36,795 nucleotides of DNA from assembly GCA_007695195.1 (NCBI GenBank), contig REEG01000268.1, positions 1 to 36,795 on the forward strand, written 5' to 3'. Each line of letters opens with the position of its first letter. The first letter of the stretch is position 1. Under the pieces are notes generated by a model, which saw only the letters and a list, made by a program, of their open reading frames with translations, ran no database searches and was not told the origin of the DNA. This document shows, in pieces, positions 4,081 through 36,534 of the stretch. This DNA comes from Gemmatimonadales bacterium. Lineage in GTDB: Bacteria; Gemmatimonadota; Gemmatimonadetes; Longimicrobiales; Gaopeijiaceae. Position numbers and translations under genes: made by a program.

Positions 4081-7000
4081 CTACGCCTCCTCCCGTAGCA
4101 CCCGGTGGATCACTTCCAGCAGCGTATCCGCCGTGTACGGCTTGGGAAGGAAGTGGCGAATCCCCGAGTCCACGATACGGGCCACCCCACCGTTGGTCCC
4201 CAACCCGCTGGCGGCGATGATGCGTACATCGGCGTCCATGCGCTTCAGGGCGCGGATGGTGGCGGGGCCGTCCATGATGGGCATGACCATGTCGGTGAGA
4301 ACCAGGTCGATTTCTTCACCCCGCTGCGCATAGATGGCCACGGCGTCGGCCCCGTCCCGGGCGGTGATCACCCGGTAGCCAAAGGTCTGGAGGGTCTGTT
4401 TCGTGATCTCCCGCACGGAACTCTCGTCATCCACCACGAGGATCACTTCGCCATCTCCCCGCAGCAACTCGATCTCCGCCGACCCGGACTCCTCCCCATC
4501 CCCCTCCTCCCGAGCCGGAAAGTAGAGGCGGAAGGTGGTCCCATTTCCAGGCTCGGAGTAGACATTGATGAAGCCGCCGTGAGCCTTCACGATAGCCGCC
4601 ACGGTGGAGAGGCCGAGGCCCGTTCCCTTGCCCACCTCCTTCGTGGTGAAGAATGGATCGAAGATCTGATCCATGACCTGCTTGGACATCCCCACGCCCG
4701 AATCCACCACCGAAATCCGAACGTGCGGCCCTGGCTCCGCTTCGCCGCTCATGGTGGCGTAGTGCTCATCCAGAACCACATTGTCCAAGGCAATCCTGAC
4801 CGTCCCCCCCTGGGGAAGCGCATCGCGTGCGTTCACTGCCAGATTCATCAGAACCTGGTGGAGTTGGGTCGGGTCTGCCAGAACCGGCCAGAGTCCGTCG
4901 GGGGCTTCCACTCGGATTTCGATGGACTTGGGGAAGGCGTCCCGGATCACCCGCTCCAGATCGGAGACAACGCGGCGAATGTCGACGACCCGCTCCGTCC
5001 GGTCGAACCCCCGAGCGAAGCCCAGAACCTGCTTCACCATGTCCGCCCCACGCTGGGCGCTGCTTTCGATGGTGGTGAGGGTCTCCAGGATATCGGGGTC
5101 TTCCGACTCCATCTTCAACATCTCGATAGAGAGGAGTATGGGCGCCAGGACGTTGTTCAGATCGTGTGCAATGCCCCCGGCCAGAGTTCCGATGCTCTCC
5201 ATCCGCTGAGCACGGAGGAACTGGGCCAGGAGCCGCTTTCTCTCGGTAATGTCGGTGTGGATGGCCAGGATCCGGTGCGGCTCCCCGTTCTCAATCCGCA
5301 CCAGGGACCAGCGTCCCTCCACGGCGATGGTGGAGCTGTCTCGCCGACGCTGCTCCAACTCCCCGGTCCAGTCGCCCTCCGCCGTAACCCGGGTCAGGGC
5401 ACTGTCCACGGTGTCAAAGGCAGTGTGGAGAAGGCTGCGGAAGGATTGCCCCAGAACCTCGTCCCGCCCCCACCCGTAGATGCGTTCGGCTCCGGCATTC
5501 CAGAAGATGATGGTCCCCTCCCGGTCCAGCACCAGGATGGCATCCTGGGCCCGGTCCAGGAGTTCCGCTTGCTCCTCGAGGCGGCGATTCGCCTGGATCT
5601 CTTTCGAGACATCCCGAAAGTAGACGGCCAATCCCTCCACTGAGGGATATCCCTTGACGGCAAACCATCGGTCGAGGGGGGCGTAGAAGAAGGTGAACGC
5701 CGCCGTCTCACCGGTGTCCATGGCGGCGCGGTATTCCCGCTCCAACACCGAGCCCACCGTTTCGGGAAATTCATTCCAGACCGGTCGGCCGAGAAGCTTG
5801 TCCCGTGACCTCTCCAGAAGCTGCTCCGCCTCCTCGTTCAGGAAGCTGAATCGCCAATCGGGATCCAGGAGGTAGAAGGCATCGGTTATGCTCTCCAGGG
5901 TCACGGTCAGCTTCTCCCTGGCGCGCTCCGCCTCTTCCCTGTCCCGGATCTGCTGGTGAATGTTGGTGCTTGAGCCGTACCAACGGATCGGGCGACCATC
6001 TTCCCCGAGAACCGGCTGACCGCGGGTCAGGTGCCATTGCCAGGAGCCGTCGTGACGCCGGATCCTGAACTCCACGCTGTAGGGCTCTCCCGCTTCCACA
6101 GACCGGCGCCACACTTCGGCTGCTCGTGCACGGTCGTCCGGATGGACCACGTCGAACCACCCTTCGCCATGGAGTTCCTTGGCGCTGACTCCCGTGAACT
6201 CCTCGATCATTCCGCTATTGAAGTCCACCCGTCCTTCGTCGTCGGCGCTCCAGACAATAAGGGGCATGGACTCGGCCAGAAGCCGGAAGCGCCGGTCGCT
6301 CCACCGCAGCGCCGACTCGGCCTCCTTATGTGCCTGGATGTCCTGGACAATTCCCTGGACCCGGACGATGCGTCCATCCTCGGCTCTCACCGGCTCGGCC
6401 ATGATGCGGACCCATATCCGCTCGCCATCCCCTCGTTCGATCTGCACCTCTTCATCGGTGGGATGCCCCCCCTCAATGTACCGGCGGTGGGCTGCCTGAG
6501 CCCGGCCACGCCACTCGTCGGGAAAGAAGGCGAAAGCCTCTTCCGGCGTGAGTTCCGTGCCGGGAGGAACACCGTGGATCCGGCAGACCTCGTCGGACCA
6601 GCGGAGTCGGTTGGTCTCCAGATCCAGGGTCCACCCTCCCACCCTGGCCATGCGCCCAGCCATGGTGAGGAGTTGCTCCCGTTCCCCGAGATCCGCCTCC
6701 ATCCGTCGCTGTTCGGAAACATCCAGGAAGTAGACGGCGAGCCCCTCCTCGGAGGGGTAGGCCCGTACGCTGAACCATCGACCGAGTGGCTCATAGAAGG
6801 CGACCAGGTGCTGGGTGCGGCCTGTGGTCATGGCTTCCCGGTAGCACGCCTCGAACGGGCCGTCCACCGCGTCGGGAAAGGCGTCCCAGATGGACACACC
6901 CAGGAGGTCGCTTCGGTCCCGATTCAGGAGTCGCTCTGCCTCCGAATTCAGGAAGACGAAGCGCCACTCCCGATCCAGGGTGAAAAGAGCGTCGGTGATG

Positions 7001-32402: not shown

Positions 32403-32717
32403 ATGGATCAACCCAGCTTCTTCGGGACGCTGACGGACTTCTCCTTCTCGTCGTTCGTCACCACCCGCTTCATCAAGCTCCTCTACGCCCTTCTCTGGAT
32501 CGTGGCGCTCCTGAACGGGGTGGCCACCTTCCTCCTGGCCTCGGCTTGGGGGTGGGACAGCGGGACCATGGCCACCATGGCGGGGATGGCCCTGGGGGTG
32601 GTGGTGGGCTTCGTGGTCTTTCTTTTCAACCTCATCTTCGGGCGGATCTTCCTGGAGATCCTGGTGGTGGTCTTCCGCATCGCCGAGAACACCCAGCGCA
32701 TGGCGGACCGGGCCTGA
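32403..32717 (+). CDS. DUF4282 family small membrane protein
   Basis: A 104-residue inner-membrane protein with the family N-terminus (FFGTLTDFSFSSFVTTRFIKLLY, written here as its key pattern DFSF then RFIKLLY), two membrane helices (about 24-50 and 58-80), and the closing LEILVVVFRIAEN segment. The function of the family is unknown. It ends 6 bases before the helicase start, and a GAGG overlapping its stop may serve as the helicase ribosome site. Confidence 0.8.
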   Translation: MDQPSFFGTLTDFSFSSFVTTRFIKLLYALLWIVALLNGVATFLLASAWGWDSGTMATMAGMALGVVVGFVVFLFNLIFGRIFLEILVVVFRIAENTQRMADRA

Positions 32718-32723
32718 GGCCAG

Positions 32724-34175
32724 TTGGGCCGCTCCCGCGGATCGCTCCCCCTCCCCGTGTCTTCTTCCCCCTTCTTCGGATTTCGCAGCGGACTGGCGGT
32801 GCTCGCCCCGCCCGATGACGTGTCGCCTCCGCCCTGGATGACTCGGGATCCGCGCCTGGCCGCGTGGGTTGCCCCGGGACACCGCCTCCCGGAACTCCGC
32901 CGATGGGCCCGGGAAGAGGGCCTGGCCCATCTGGAAGACTCGGGCGCCGGCGCCGAGGCGCTGGATCCGGACTTCCACGATGCGCGGACTCCCCGGGACT
33001 ATCAGTGGGAGGCGGTGCGCCGCTGGGAGGCCGCCGGACGGAGGGGAAGCGTGGTCCTCCCCACCGGCGCCGGAAAGAGTCTGGTGGCCCTCCTGGCCAT
33101 TCGGGAGCAGGGGGAAGGGGCCCTGGTGGTGGCCCCCACCCGCGCCCTGGTGGCTCAGTGGTTCATCCAGCTGGCCGATGCCTTCGGAGGCCATCAGGTA
33201 GGCGTCTGGTACGGAGATGAGAAGGACCCCCGGCGCGTCACCGTCACCACCTACCACTCGGCCTTCTCCATCCTGGAGCGGCAGGGCGACCGCTTCGGAC
33301 TCCTGGTCCTGGACGAAGTCCATCACCTGGCCGACACCCGTGACGGCACCGAATCCACCTGGCTCGACCCGCTCCGCATTGCTCCGGCACCCCACCGCCT
33401 GGGGCTCACCGCCACCTACCCGGACGGTCGGGACACCGGACTGGAAGGGCTTCTGGGTCCCGTGGTCTACCGGAGGGCCATCGGCGAGATGGCCGACCGG
33501 GAGCTGGCCGACTTCGTCACCGAACGTCGCTTCGTCCCCCTGGCTCCCCATGAGACGGAGCGGTACCGGCGGGCGGACGGGCTCTACCAGGAGTGGATGG
33601 AAGCCCATGGGGATGGCGCCTCCTCCGAGGAGGTGTGGCTACGCTTCATGGCCGAGACCCGGCGTTCACCGGAGGCCCGGCGGGCCTTCCACGCCTATCT
33701 CGAGCGGGAGCGCATTGTCCACACCTGCCGGGGAAAGCTCCACGAGGCCGGTCGGATCCTCCGGCTTCACCCCGCCGAGCAGGCCATCCTATTCTGCGGG
33801 AGTCGCGACGCCGCCGAGGCCGTAGCCCGCCACTTCGCCATCCCCATGGTGACGGCCCACACCCCGGCCTCGGAGCGAAGGGATATCCTGGCGGGGATGG
33901 GAGGGGGACGCATCCGTGCGCTAGCCGGCGTCCGGGTCCTGGACGAGGGGTGGGACGTCCCCGGCGCAAAGGTGGGGATCATCCTGGGCGATTCCAGCCG
34001 GGGTGGGCGCCGACAGCACGCCCAGCGGCTTGGCCGCATCCTTCGGCGGCGCGGGGAGGAGGTGGCTTCCTTCTATGAACTGGTGGCGGCGGACACCTTC
34101 GAGTTCTTCGCCTCGCAGAAGCGGCGCGGCGCACTCCGGGATGCTCGGAGCCGGCAGCTGGGGCTCGGTCTCTGA
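32724..34175 (+). CDS. XPB/Rad25-like superfamily 2 helicase
   Basis: A 483-residue DNA translocase. Helicase motifs are visible: Q-like DYQWEAV (about 92-98), Walker A LPTGAGKS (112-119), Ia APTRALVAQW (137-146), DEVHH (197-201), TATYP (229-233), and motif VI QRLGRILRR (434-442). The linker of about 90 residues between the two RecA domains (about 255-350) has the charged helical content of a thumb-type insert found in XPB-like helicases. The start is uncertain: TTG 32724 has TGAGG nearby, but GTG 32757 and ATG 32838 are alternatives; the ATG would remove a conserved-looking segment. The stop overlaps the next gene (TGATG). With the DUF790 nuclease it resembles archaeal XPB-Bax1. Confidence 0.87.
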   Translation: MGRSRGSLPLPVSSSPFFGFRSGLAVLAPPDDVSPPPWMTRDPRLAAWVAPGHRLPELRRWAREEGLAHLEDSGAGAEALDPDFHDARTPRDYQWEAVRRWEAAGRRGSVVLPTGAGKSLVALLAIREQGEGALVVAPTRALVAQWFIQLADAFGGHQVGVWYGDEKDPRRVTVTTYHSAFSILERQGDRFGLLVLDEVHHLADTRDGTESTWLDPLRIAPAPHRLGLTATYPDGRDTGLEGLLGPVVYRRAIGEMADRELADFVTERRFVPLAPHETERYRRADGLYQEWMEAHGDGASSEEVWLRFMAETRRSPEARRAFHAYLERERIVHTCRGKLHEAGRILRLHPAEQAILFCGSRDAAEAVARHFAIPMVTAHTPASERRDILAGMGGGRIRALAGVRVLDEGWDVPGAKVGIILGDSSRGGRRQHAQRLGRILRRRGEEVASFYELVAADTFEFFASQKRRGALRDARSRQLGLGL

Positions 34176-35476
34176 TGCTTCGCCGTACCCATGTTCAGCC
34201 ATTCCTACGGTATGTCCCGGACCGGGCGGGGCCCCGGCCTCGGGTCGGTTCCGTGCTGGACGATGGGGGCGAGGATCTCGGAACCCTCCAGGTGGACTAC
34301 CTCACCGATCCCCGGAATGTGGTCCGCCCCTTCCTGGCCCGGGTGCTCCGCCTCATGCGGCGCCTCGAGGGGTCGTCCCGTCGGACGGTGGAAGAGGCGC
34401 TTCGACGGCAGCAGCGGCGCGTCAGGGACGCCCGGCGTATGGACGGCCTGGCCCGGACGATCCTCTCCCTCAGTCGCTTCCGGGCTCCCGACGGGGCCCA
34501 CCGGGCCGCCGAAGTCCGGCGGGAGCTTCACGAGCGGCGCGGCGAGTGGTGGCCGCCCGTCCCCGGGGACGAGGGGGCTCCCTACCAGGCAGCCGCGGAG
34601 GCGCTGGCGATGACGCCGGGCCAGGTGCGGGAGTTGCTCTTCGCCGATGATCCAGGGGCCCGGATCCTGGTGCGGGCGCCGCGCCTCTCCGCCGCCGCGC
34701 TCCTTCACCGGTACAACGTGGACCTGGCCCGCGGGGTCCTCTTGGATGCGGTGGAGATGGAGGTGGAAGCCGGCGAGGGGTGGCGGGACCTCTTTCGGAT
34801 GGTGAAGCTCGCGCGCCTCATGCACGAGATCCATCCGGTGGGGGCCCACCGGTTCCGGATCTCCCTCACCGGCCCCGCTGCGCCCTACGTCCTTCGGCCG
34901 CAGCGCTACGGGATCCGTCTCGCCCGGGTCGTCCTGGGCCTGGCCCGGACCCGCGGATGGACGGCAGAGGCCCGTGTCCTCCACGAGGGCCGGCCCGTGC
35001 CCTATCGTCTCTCGGCGTCCGGTCCCCTTCGCCCCCGGCGGGTGCGCCGGCCCCGCTTCGACTCCGGGTGGGAAGAGGATCTAGCCCAAGCCTTCGCGGA
35101 AAAGCTCGGCTCGGAGCGCGAGGGGTGGATCCTCACTCGGGAAGATGTCCCGGTCCAGGTGGGAGGTCGGGTCTTCCTCCCCGATTTCACCGTGCGGCAC
35201 CGGGACGGCCGTGTGGCGCTGGTGGAGATCGTGGGATTCTGGACACCGGAGTACCTGGACGAGAAGCTCCGGAAGCTGCGCGAGGCCGGGCTCCACAACC
35301 TGGTGGTGGTGGTGTTCCGGGGGCTCGCCGCCGGACGGGACGAGGCCTCACAGGGGAGGCTCATCCGTGAGTTGGCGGCGCTCCCCGGGGAGGTCACCTG
35401 GTTTACGAACCGGGTGCGGATCGGGCCCCTGATGGCGGCGGTGGAGCGGGTGGCTCACCGACCGGTCGGCGAGTAG
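34175..35476 (+). CDS. DUF790 (Bax1-like) nuclease
   Basis: A 433-residue protein of the DUF790 family, whose archaeal member Bax1 is a structure-specific nuclease that binds XPB. The N-terminal part (about 1-280) is a basic DNA-binding and helicase-binding region. The C-terminal nuclease domain (about 290-390) has a PD-(D/E)XK-type layout: Glu300 in FDSGWEE, Asp337 in LPDFTV, Glu351 in VEIVGFW, and Lys364 in LDEKL. It starts at ATG 34175, sharing one base with the helicase stop (TGATG), which implies coupled translation and a complex. The likely role is DNA repair, incising near a bubble or fork opened by the helicase. A defence role is possible but nothing around the pair supports it strongly. 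Confidence 0.88.
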   Translation: MLRRTHVQPFLRYVPDRAGPRPRVGSVLDDGGEDLGTLQVDYLTDPRNVVRPFLARVLRLMRRLEGSSRRTVEEALRRQQRRVRDARRMDGLARTILSLSRFRAPDGAHRAAEVRRELHERRGEWWPPVPGDEGAPYQAAAEALAMTPGQVRELLFADDPGARILVRAPRLSAAALLHRYNVDLARGVLLDAVEMEVEAGEGWRDLFRMVKLARLMHEIHPVGAHRFRISLTGPAAPYVLRPQRYGIRLARVVLGLARTRGWTAEARVLHEGRPVPYRLSASGPLRPRRVRRPRFDSGWEEDLAQAFAEKLGSEREGWILTREDVPVQVGGRVFLPDFTVRHRDGRVALVEIVGFWTPEYLDEKLRKLREAGLHNLVVVVFRGLAAGRDEASQGRLIRELAALPGEVTWFTNRVRIGPLMAAVERVAHRPVGE

Positions 35477-35564: not shown

Positions 35565-35592
35565 GTCTCCCGTCACCCGTCACCCGTCACCC
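35565..35592. repeat. Heptanucleotide tandem repeat across the ProDH stop
   Basis: GTCACCC is repeated three times (35572-35592), with a near-copy GTCTCCC before it (35565-35571). The proline dehydrogenase stop codon (35587-35589) lies inside the repeat. Confidence 0.85.
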
Positions 35593-36534
35593 GAAGATGG
35601 ACCGCGCCACGAACCAGACGTTGGCCGGCCGCTCCGCCAGCCGGCGCATGTACCATCGGTACCAGTCCTGGCCGTAGCTGATGAGGGTACTCACGGCCTG
35701 ACCCTCCGAGCGCAGCCGGGCCTGATGGTTGGCCCGGATCCCGTAGAGCATATGGACCTCGAAGGTGTTGGGGGGCAGACCCCGCTCCCGGGCCTCGGCC
35801 TGGATCCGACCCACCAGGAGGAGATCGTGGGTACCGAGAACGGCTCGGCTGGGCGGTCCTTCCCCGCGCCGCCCCTTGGCGGCGAGCTCCATCATGCGCA
35901 AGGCCACGTCCTGGAAGGTACGGTCCGTGTCGGCTTTCCGGGGGAAGGCCACCTCCGGCGGCTCGGAGTAGGCCCCCTTCACCAGGCGCACCACGGGGCC
36001 CAGCGGGGCTAGCCGCTCAAGGTCGGCGGGGGTCCGCCGCAGATAGGCCTGAAGGGCCAGGCCGGTTCGGGGATAATCCACCTTCAGGCTCTCGTAAAGA
36101 TCCAGGGTCCGGTCCACGTACGACGAGTCTTCCATATCCAGCCAGAGAACCGAACCTACCGCATGGGCCCGATCGGCCAACTCACCCGCCAACTCGGCGC
36201 ACCGCCGCGGGGACTGCTCGAGCCCCAACTGCGTCGGCTTCACCGAGATCTCGCCGGGGACTCCTGCAGCCGCCATCCGGTCCAGGAGACCCAGATAGTG
36301 GTCGCGAACCCGTTCCGCCTCGACCAGGGTGGTGAGTGCCTCGCCGAGGTGGGTGAAGAGAAGCCCGCGGCCGTCCGCATCGACCAGCCCACGGCCCGCC
36401 TCCAGTGCCGCTTCGACCGTCTCTCCCGGCATGAAGGCGCGGGTGGCCCGCCGAACCACCCGGCTGCGGGTAGCCATACGATTCAGTCGGTCACTGGCGG
36501 CGGCGGTCAGTAAAAGGGAACGACCGAGACCCAT
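35587..36534 (-). CDS. Proline dehydrogenase (monofunctional, FAD-dependent)
   Basis: A 315-residue FAD enzyme that oxidises proline to pyrroline-5-carboxylate. The length is that of monofunctional bacterial ProDH, not PutA. Landmarks of the TIM barrel are visible in order: SVKPTQLG, WLDMEDSSYVDRTL, LQAYLRRT, VRLVKGAYSEP, an aspartate-bearing GTHD strand, and a HMLYGIR segment; a C-terminal arginine-rich helix (RWYMRRLAERP) fits substrate binding. The ATG at 36532-36534 has AAGGAG 8 bases upstream and begins a normal N-terminus, so the longer frame to 36750 is rejected. No P5C dehydrogenase is adjacent. It converges on the DUF790 gene. Confidence 0.9.
   Translation of the reverse strand: MGLGRSLLLTAAASDRLNRMATRSRVVRRATRAFMPGETVEAALEAGRGLVDADGRGLLFTHLGEALTTLVEAERVRDHYLGLLDRMAAAGVPGEISVKPTQLGLEQSPRRCAELAGELADRAHAVGSVLWLDMEDSSYVDRTLDLYESLKVDYPRTGLALQAYLRRTPADLERLAPLGPVVRLVKGAYSEPPEVAFPRKADTDRTFQDVALRMMELAAKGRRGEGPPSRAVLGTHDLLLVGRIQAEARERGLPPNTFEVHMLYGIRANHQARLRSEGQAVSTLISYGQDWYRWYMRRLAERPANVWFVARSIFG

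Follow-up and report, generated by a model that had tools for sequence, protein, structure and literature searches.

Introduction

The closest described counterparts of the system considered here are the archaeal XPB-Bax1 pairs, in which the gene of the helicase XPB precedes that of the nuclease Bax1, and for which structures are available from A. fulgidus (6p66), S. tokodaii (6p4o, 6p4w and 6p4f) and, for Bax1, P. furiosus (8gy8). Published accounts describe the archaeal complex and its activity and treat the two proteins as repair enzymes (PMC7293015, PMC7672443), with forked and bubble DNA as favoured substrates of the complex (PMC7672443). According to a 2012 study of M. tuberculosis XPB, bacteria were not known to have such a complex; the same study described the RED motif, located after helicase motif III, as absolutely conserved in XPB (PMC3353954). 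Judged by titles and abstract openings, the open-access literature gave us no report of a bacterial XPB-Bax1 pair or of RED loss. We analysed a DNA stretch of 36,795 nucleotides from a Gemmatimonadales bacterium (assembly GCA_007695195.1, contig REEG01000268.1; hereafter the window), which is an entire contig of a 3.92 Mb Gemmatimonadota genome in 306 contigs and encodes an XPB-like SF2 helicase directly followed by a Bax1/DUF790 nuclease.

By family, gene linkage, co-evolution, folds and the residues it has kept and lost, this pair belongs to a RED-less branch of the Bax1-linked XPBs, and this branch constitutes the novelty of the locus. By analogy with the archaeal proteins, its two products would form a complex, unwind and cut DNA and take part in repair. 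The features of the pair are the following (StXPB, S. tokodaii XPB):

32724..34175, + strand: gene of the XPB-like SF2 helicase, ending with TGA 34173-34175; of its two possible starts, GTG 32757 is likelier than TTG 32724
32757..32954 (approximate borders), + strand: N-terminal domain corresponding in position to the damage recognition domain (DRD) of archaeal XPB, by structure match to 2fz4
33405..33434, + strand: LTATYPDGRD, motif III and the loop expected to hold RED, from alignments of 74 and 122 helicases
33546..33722, + strand: thumb (ThM), aligned without gaps to A. fulgidus XPB
33636-33638, + strand: aromatic wedge, a tryptophan (W), counterpart of StXPB F278
34173..34177, + strand: TGATG overlap, with A34175 common to the helicase stop and the nuclease start
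34175..35476, + strand: Bax1/DUF790 nuclease gene, 433 amino acids, ATG start at 34175
34646..34654, + strand: remnant of the N-terminal nuclease site (columns 158 and 160), D158 kept, second acid changed to P160
35072..35266, + strand: C-terminal PD-(D/E)XK site, E300 (35072), D337 (35183), E351 (35225) and K364 (35264)

An archaeal-type XPB helicase without the RED motif

The SF2 motifs PTGAGKS, DEVHH, LTAT, DEGWDVP and QRLGRILRR are all present in the helicase, which matches the Pfam families ResIII (84 bits) and ERCC3_RAD25_C (PF16203; 56.7 bits, cut-off 27). Pfam match, motifs and fold together identify the two RecA-like domains and the XPB-type C-terminal domain of an XPB, and the SF2 core and this C-terminal domain are also found in the classic bacterial XPB of the M. 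tuberculosis type. The closest solved relatives detected by phmmer are A. fulgidus XPB (6p66/2fwr, 236 bits) and S. tokodaii XPB (198 bits), and the AlphaFold2 model (mean predicted local distance difference test, pLDDT, 92.0) superimposes on DNA-bound S. tokodaii XPB (6p4f_C) with Z 36.3 over 433 residues and a root-mean-square deviation (rmsd) of 3.5. The XPB_DRD match is sub-threshold by sequence (18.1 vs a cut-off of 26 bits); nevertheless, 205 of the 206 residues of 2fz4, the N-terminal half of A. fulgidus XPB, align from model residue 4 onwards (Z 24.1), and so a DRD-type domain is present. The classic M. tuberculosis-type XPB lacks a thumb and has another, long domain at its N-terminus (PMC3353954), and the window helicase, with its DRD-type N-terminus and thumb, does not belong to that type. 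L111, a classic XPB from a bacterium of the same order, carries VREDG and scores 853 bits against the XPB model NF045503, vs 126 for the window helicase, the only XPB-type helicase of its genome.

The preliminary description of this DNA had proposed a long insert between the helicase domains. This region turned out to be the ordinary thumb of Bax1-linked XPBs: it aligns without gaps with the A. fulgidus XPB thumb region, and the distance from motif III to motif V (179 residues) is typical of the family (179-186 in Gemmatimonadota and 179-182 in archaea), which rules out an insert unique to this protein. The thumb holds an aromatic wedge, as in archaea, where the roles of StXPB residues, including the F278 wedge, have been described (PMC7672443). 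All 14 Gemmatimonadota helicases have W at this position, in place of the archaeal F.

The RED motif, on which the preliminary description was silent, is where the window helicase departs from its relatives. In StXPB it comprises R205, D206 and D207, which hold the junction; alanine changes at these residues weakened the binding of bubble DNA and lowered the ATPase, to 67% with forked DNA (PMC7672443). The window helicase has LTATYPDGRD where LTAT.ER.D would be expected, in a loop that lacks RED and is two residues shorter than the archaeal one. Scored as the pattern L[TS][AG]T.[EDK]R.D in an alignment of 122 Bax1-type helicases (partial L136 and L145 left out), RED is present in all 41 archaeal rows, in 2/2 from Deinococcota, 31/41 from Myxococcota and 8/23 from Planctomycetota, and in none of the 14 Gemmatimonadota rows nor in the single one from Pseudomonadota; 40 of the 122 helicases are RED-less. 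This alignment includes two pairs of identical helicases (L086/L088 and L172/L196), and, since L172 and L196 are the same gene, the distinct RED-bearing Myxococcota rows number 30 and not 31; the row labelled 'L172_linked' is a convergent neighbour of its nuclease gene, not an upstream-linked one. A shifted 'RD' is observed in the loop of 11 Gemmatimonadota rows (GRD, or ARD in L033) and is missing from L023, L024 and L026, so that some of these proteins may have a RED at a shifted position, but such a motif is not kept across the group.

Our first sample was biased in this respect, because its loci had been collected through the pattern VE[ILV]VGFWT, and all its Myxococcota/Pseudomonadota (10/10) and Planctomycetota (7/7) rows were RED-less. 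The second sample was composed of the best-scoring DUF790 matches of profile searches in Myxococcota and Planctomycetota, with 20 and 30 loci requested, and is thus not random either. As these phylum-wide searches revealed RED in most Myxococcota rows, we rejected the idea that three phyla have lost RED as a whole. On a helicase tree built without the RED columns, the RED state changes three times, and most RED-less rows form one group (split support 90), apart from which stand six Planctomycetota rows and L128; four changes are needed on the nuclease tree. In the first nuclease tree, the RED-less bacterial rows, 31 in number, do not form one clade, but forcing them together was not rejected (p-AU 0.38). 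Given the absence of RED, we did not file the window helicase as a canonical XPB, but placed it in a branch of the Bax1-linked XPBs that lacks this motif.

A Bax1-like nuclease with a single complete active site

The nuclease matches DUF790 at 229.2 bits (Pfam cut-off 28.8), and its five PDB matches are all archaeal Bax1 chains, P. furiosus Bax1 among them (114 bits; 8gy8, which the structure library names Bax1 and the sequence file a putative IF-2 homolog). Its AlphaFold2 model (pLDDT 90.2) resembles the five Bax1 entries with Z 19-21 and an rmsd of about 9-10, for which domain movement is the likely cause; the next unrelated chain reaches Z 8.1. The match to 8gy8 (Z 21.4) extends over 362 residues. 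Both proteins of the window therefore share their whole-length folds with the archaeal pair. The nuclease is devoid of the long C-terminal domain of Bax1, which is also missing in some archaea.

Two nuclease sites have been described in A. fulgidus Bax1 (AfBax1): a C-terminal one, formed by E275, D305 and E318, and a second, N-terminal one at the XPB interface, formed by D133 and E135, with Y155 and N156 (PMC7293015). The C-terminal PD-(D/E)XK site is complete in the window nuclease. Its residues E300, D337, E351 and K364 are present in 14/14 Gemmatimonadota nucleases, the three acids being the column equivalents of AfBax1 E275, D305 and E318. The N-terminal site, a second loss that the preliminary description did not mention, is incomplete: D158, Y180 and N181 are kept, while P160 occupies the position of AfBax1 E135. 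An E or D is found in this column in 39/40 archaea, 0/14 Gemmatimonadota, 0/7 Planctomycetota and 1/9 Myxococcota in the first sample, and in 14/30 RED-bearing Myxococcota, which indicates that the acid and RED are not lost strictly together. The N-terminal site was reported for TaBax1 and AfBax1 (PMC7293015) and may hence belong to some Bax1 members only.

The pairs of Myxococcota, Planctomycetota and Deinococcus are composed of the same two families, usually adjacent, but their RED-bearing members, which keep ER.D or KR.D, differ from the window pair in the nuclease as well. Many RED-bearing bacterial Bax1 proteins among the Planctomycetota and Myxococcota loci L129-L177 have R at the K364 position and no glutamate in motif I (E300 column). 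At the level of the alignment, these differences could reflect either an alignment shift or a rebuilt nuclease site.

Phylogeny, linkage and distribution of the pair

In both the helicase and the nuclease tree, the window protein falls in the same clade of 14 Gemmatimonadota members, with a long stem and support of 100, and its nearest relatives come from separate Gemmatimonadota assemblies, several of them of the CSSed series. Across 74 pairs, distances in the two trees correlate with r 0.93, and among the 14 Gemmatimonadota with r 0.95 (0/1000 permutations as high in either case), although plain common descent is part of such a mirror-tree correlation. These are quick trees with long branches and warnings, and partial L027, L080 and L100 were left out of the first set. 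They agree with the expectation of the preliminary description that the two genes belong with archaeal XPB and Bax1 and not to unrelated families.

A single nuclease sequence used as query of the genome-contig collection retrieved no relative, and the loci were found by an alignment-based scan. The helicase gene is directly upstream of the nuclease gene at 71 of these 80 loci; the other nine are four at contig edges (L032, L063, L090 and L094), three of Jordarchaea (L052, L062 and L066) and two fragments (L053 and L101). The Jordarchaea loci are archaeal exceptions to the linkage, with Bax1 genes and no helicase within the upstream 1.7-4.8 kb. L053, from Gemmatimonas sp. UKL202c, is a second DUF790 gene (5001-5621), covering the C-terminal half and devoid of a helicase, in an assembly that also holds a full pair (L034).

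In profile searches, DUF790 was above the cut-off in 9/298 Gemmatimonadota genomes, with the helicase directly upstream in 9/9, and in 36/199 Planctomycetota and 101/188 Myxococcota genomes, these being the phyla of L059 (a Planctomycetes record) and L055 (a Myxococcales record), respectively. One further genome, G025, was rejected as a holder, being below the cut-off and without a match in the linkage scan. Among the Myxococcota/Planctomycetota loci L126-L177, 41/52 are upstream-linked and 11 are not, yet a full-length helicase is encoded elsewhere in ten of these 11 genomes, and in one it adjoins the nuclease on the opposite strand. The helicase-DUF790 pair is thus a regular bacterial system, rare in Gemmatimonadota. 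Co-occurrence in relatives, which the preliminary description had made a touchstone, is confirmed by these counts, and separation of the genes is the lesser case. Its view of an archaeal-type pair as exceptional in a bacterium does not hold, given that DUF790 is encoded in over half of the sampled Myxococcota genomes.

DUF790 is also found on eleven Deinococcus and many haloarchaeal plasmid records, and the helicase adjoins in the two Deinococcus ones checked. On Deinococcus gobiensis plasmid P1 (L121, 2195-5954) the pair directly follows a gene of the spore photoproduct lyase family, a DNA-repair gene. Cyanobacteria have also been named as DUF790 holders (PMC1189080).

Gene borders and neighbourhood

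The TGATG overlap, in which stop and start share one base, had been correctly described, but it is not conserved: the spacing between helicase and nuclease genes ranges from -1 to +51 nt across Gemmatimonadota. The nuclease start is backed by 'MLRRTHV.PF', a conserved beginning in relatives. The helicase has two candidate starts, both preceded by an in-frame stop (32715-32717); GTG 32757 is the more likely, being nearer to the starts of relatives than TTG 32724, the one used in the preliminary description.

A gene for a DUF4282 protein, ending at 32717, lies upstream of the helicase gene, and a convergent proline dehydrogenase gene downstream of the nuclease gene. As already noted in the preliminary description, the scanned window neighbours include no further recognisable repair gene, but encode a citrate-type transporter, the DUF4282 protein, proline dehydrogenase, peptidases, a TonB receptor and a kinase. 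No third gene recurs around the pair in the 17 Gemmatimonadota loci, many of which have short flanks, several ended by contig ends, and a third partner gene was accordingly rejected. Elsewhere in the window, positions 7655-29979 are rich in peptide-handling genes (an M24, two M14, an S8 and an S10 peptidase and a penicillin-amidase family protein), and the TonB receptor of the same stretch has carboxypeptidase-regulatory domains. A short tandem repeat of CCCGTCA (35569-35593), located between the convergent genes, is found both in the C-rich gap and in the terminal part of the proline dehydrogenase gene that follows.

Proposed function and alternative explanations

We consider it likely that the window encodes a RED-less XPB-Bax1 heterodimer, a helicase-nuclease which unwinds and cuts DNA in repair beside UvrABC. 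Translation-coupled expression would supply both subunits together; the motor would grip duplex DNA beside a bubble or fork, the thumb and its tryptophan wedge would part the strands, and Bax1 would hold the other strand and cut near the double-strand/single-strand junction through its C-terminal PD-(D/E)XK site. With RED missing and the N-terminal site of Bax1 incomplete, strand opening in the RED-less branch should lean more on the thumb and Bax1, and cutting in the Gemmatimonadota pair should come from a single active site. The window's genome has a complete UvrABC (two UvrA, one UvrB and one UvrC above the cut-off), in contrast to the archaeal setting of the pair, and this suggests that the pair adds to UvrABC and does not replace it, its most probable role being that of a supplement in DNA repair. 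The two UvrA genes are both full-length (G000:C38:13454-16219 and G000:C89:44270-47065).

Several observations weigh against this interpretation. The helicase lacks RED, a motif important for bubble binding and ATPase in StXPB, and scores 125.9 bits against the NCBIfam equivalog NF045503 (XPB), where the cut-off is 610; likewise, the nuclease reaches 122.7 and 110.6 bits against the Bax1 equivalogs NF053694 and NF053695, with a cut-off of 500. A complete UvrABC leaves no gap for the pair to fill. Its spread within Gemmatimonadota is patchy, one congeneric genome being without it, and this pattern agrees better with an accessory repair gene than with a core one. Finally, the literature searched contained no experiment on any bacterial XPB-Bax1 pair.

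The patchy spread, together with the presence of the pair family on Deinococcus and haloarchaeal plasmids, also leaves room for a defence or selfish module, in which the helicase-nuclease would attack foreign DNA instead of repairing the cell's own. The flanks vary between loci, section 19 of PMC1189080 leaves a 'selfish character' open, and the helicase weakly resembles PADLOC PbeA (131 bits, with partial model coverage), its other matches there being generic. The nuclease, however, matches no PADLOC model, no defence gene stands beside the pair in the scanned window, and the archaeal relatives are described as repair enzymes (PMC7293015, PMC7672443); we regard this explanation as rather improbable. 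With no match in 50,697 phage records, which also counts against a selfish module, a phage origin was rejected. Replication-fork or recombination processing, in place of bulky-lesion excision, has somewhat more in its favour and is a possible, though not the preferred, role: forks and bubbles are the preferred substrates of the archaeal complex (PMC7672443) and excision repair is already covered by UvrABC, but no linked recombination gene is seen, either among the scanned window neighbours or in the 17 Gemmatimonadota loci. That the closest solved relatives are archaeal and the genome is a 306-contig assembly could point to recent gene transfer from an archaeon, or to an artefact of binning. 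This we hold to be very unlikely, as the window lies inside the long-stemmed clade of separate Gemmatimonadota assemblies in both trees and other bacterial phyla are represented by separate deep branches; recent archaeal transfer as such was rejected on this placement.

Returning to the repair heterodimer, a broader proposal can be put forward tentatively: in several bacterial phyla, UvrABC may be accompanied by a second machinery that opens and incises DNA in the archaeal/eukaryotic manner, and the motor of the window's branch may have been rebuilt without RED, with opening by the thumb tryptophan wedge and Bax1 and cutting by one nuclease site. RED would then have been lost about three times, and so would be dispensable where Bax1 is a fixed partner.

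XPB-Bax1 serves as a simple model for the opening of damaged DNA by TFIIH, and it is treated as an archaeal pair in the accounts cited here (PMC7293015, PMC7672443). A bacterial pair and UvrABC in one genome would let both excision strategies be compared in a single organism by gene deletion, and bacteria with the pair might prove more tractable than hyperthermophilic archaea. The naturally RED-less motors offer, in turn, a ready test of RED function.

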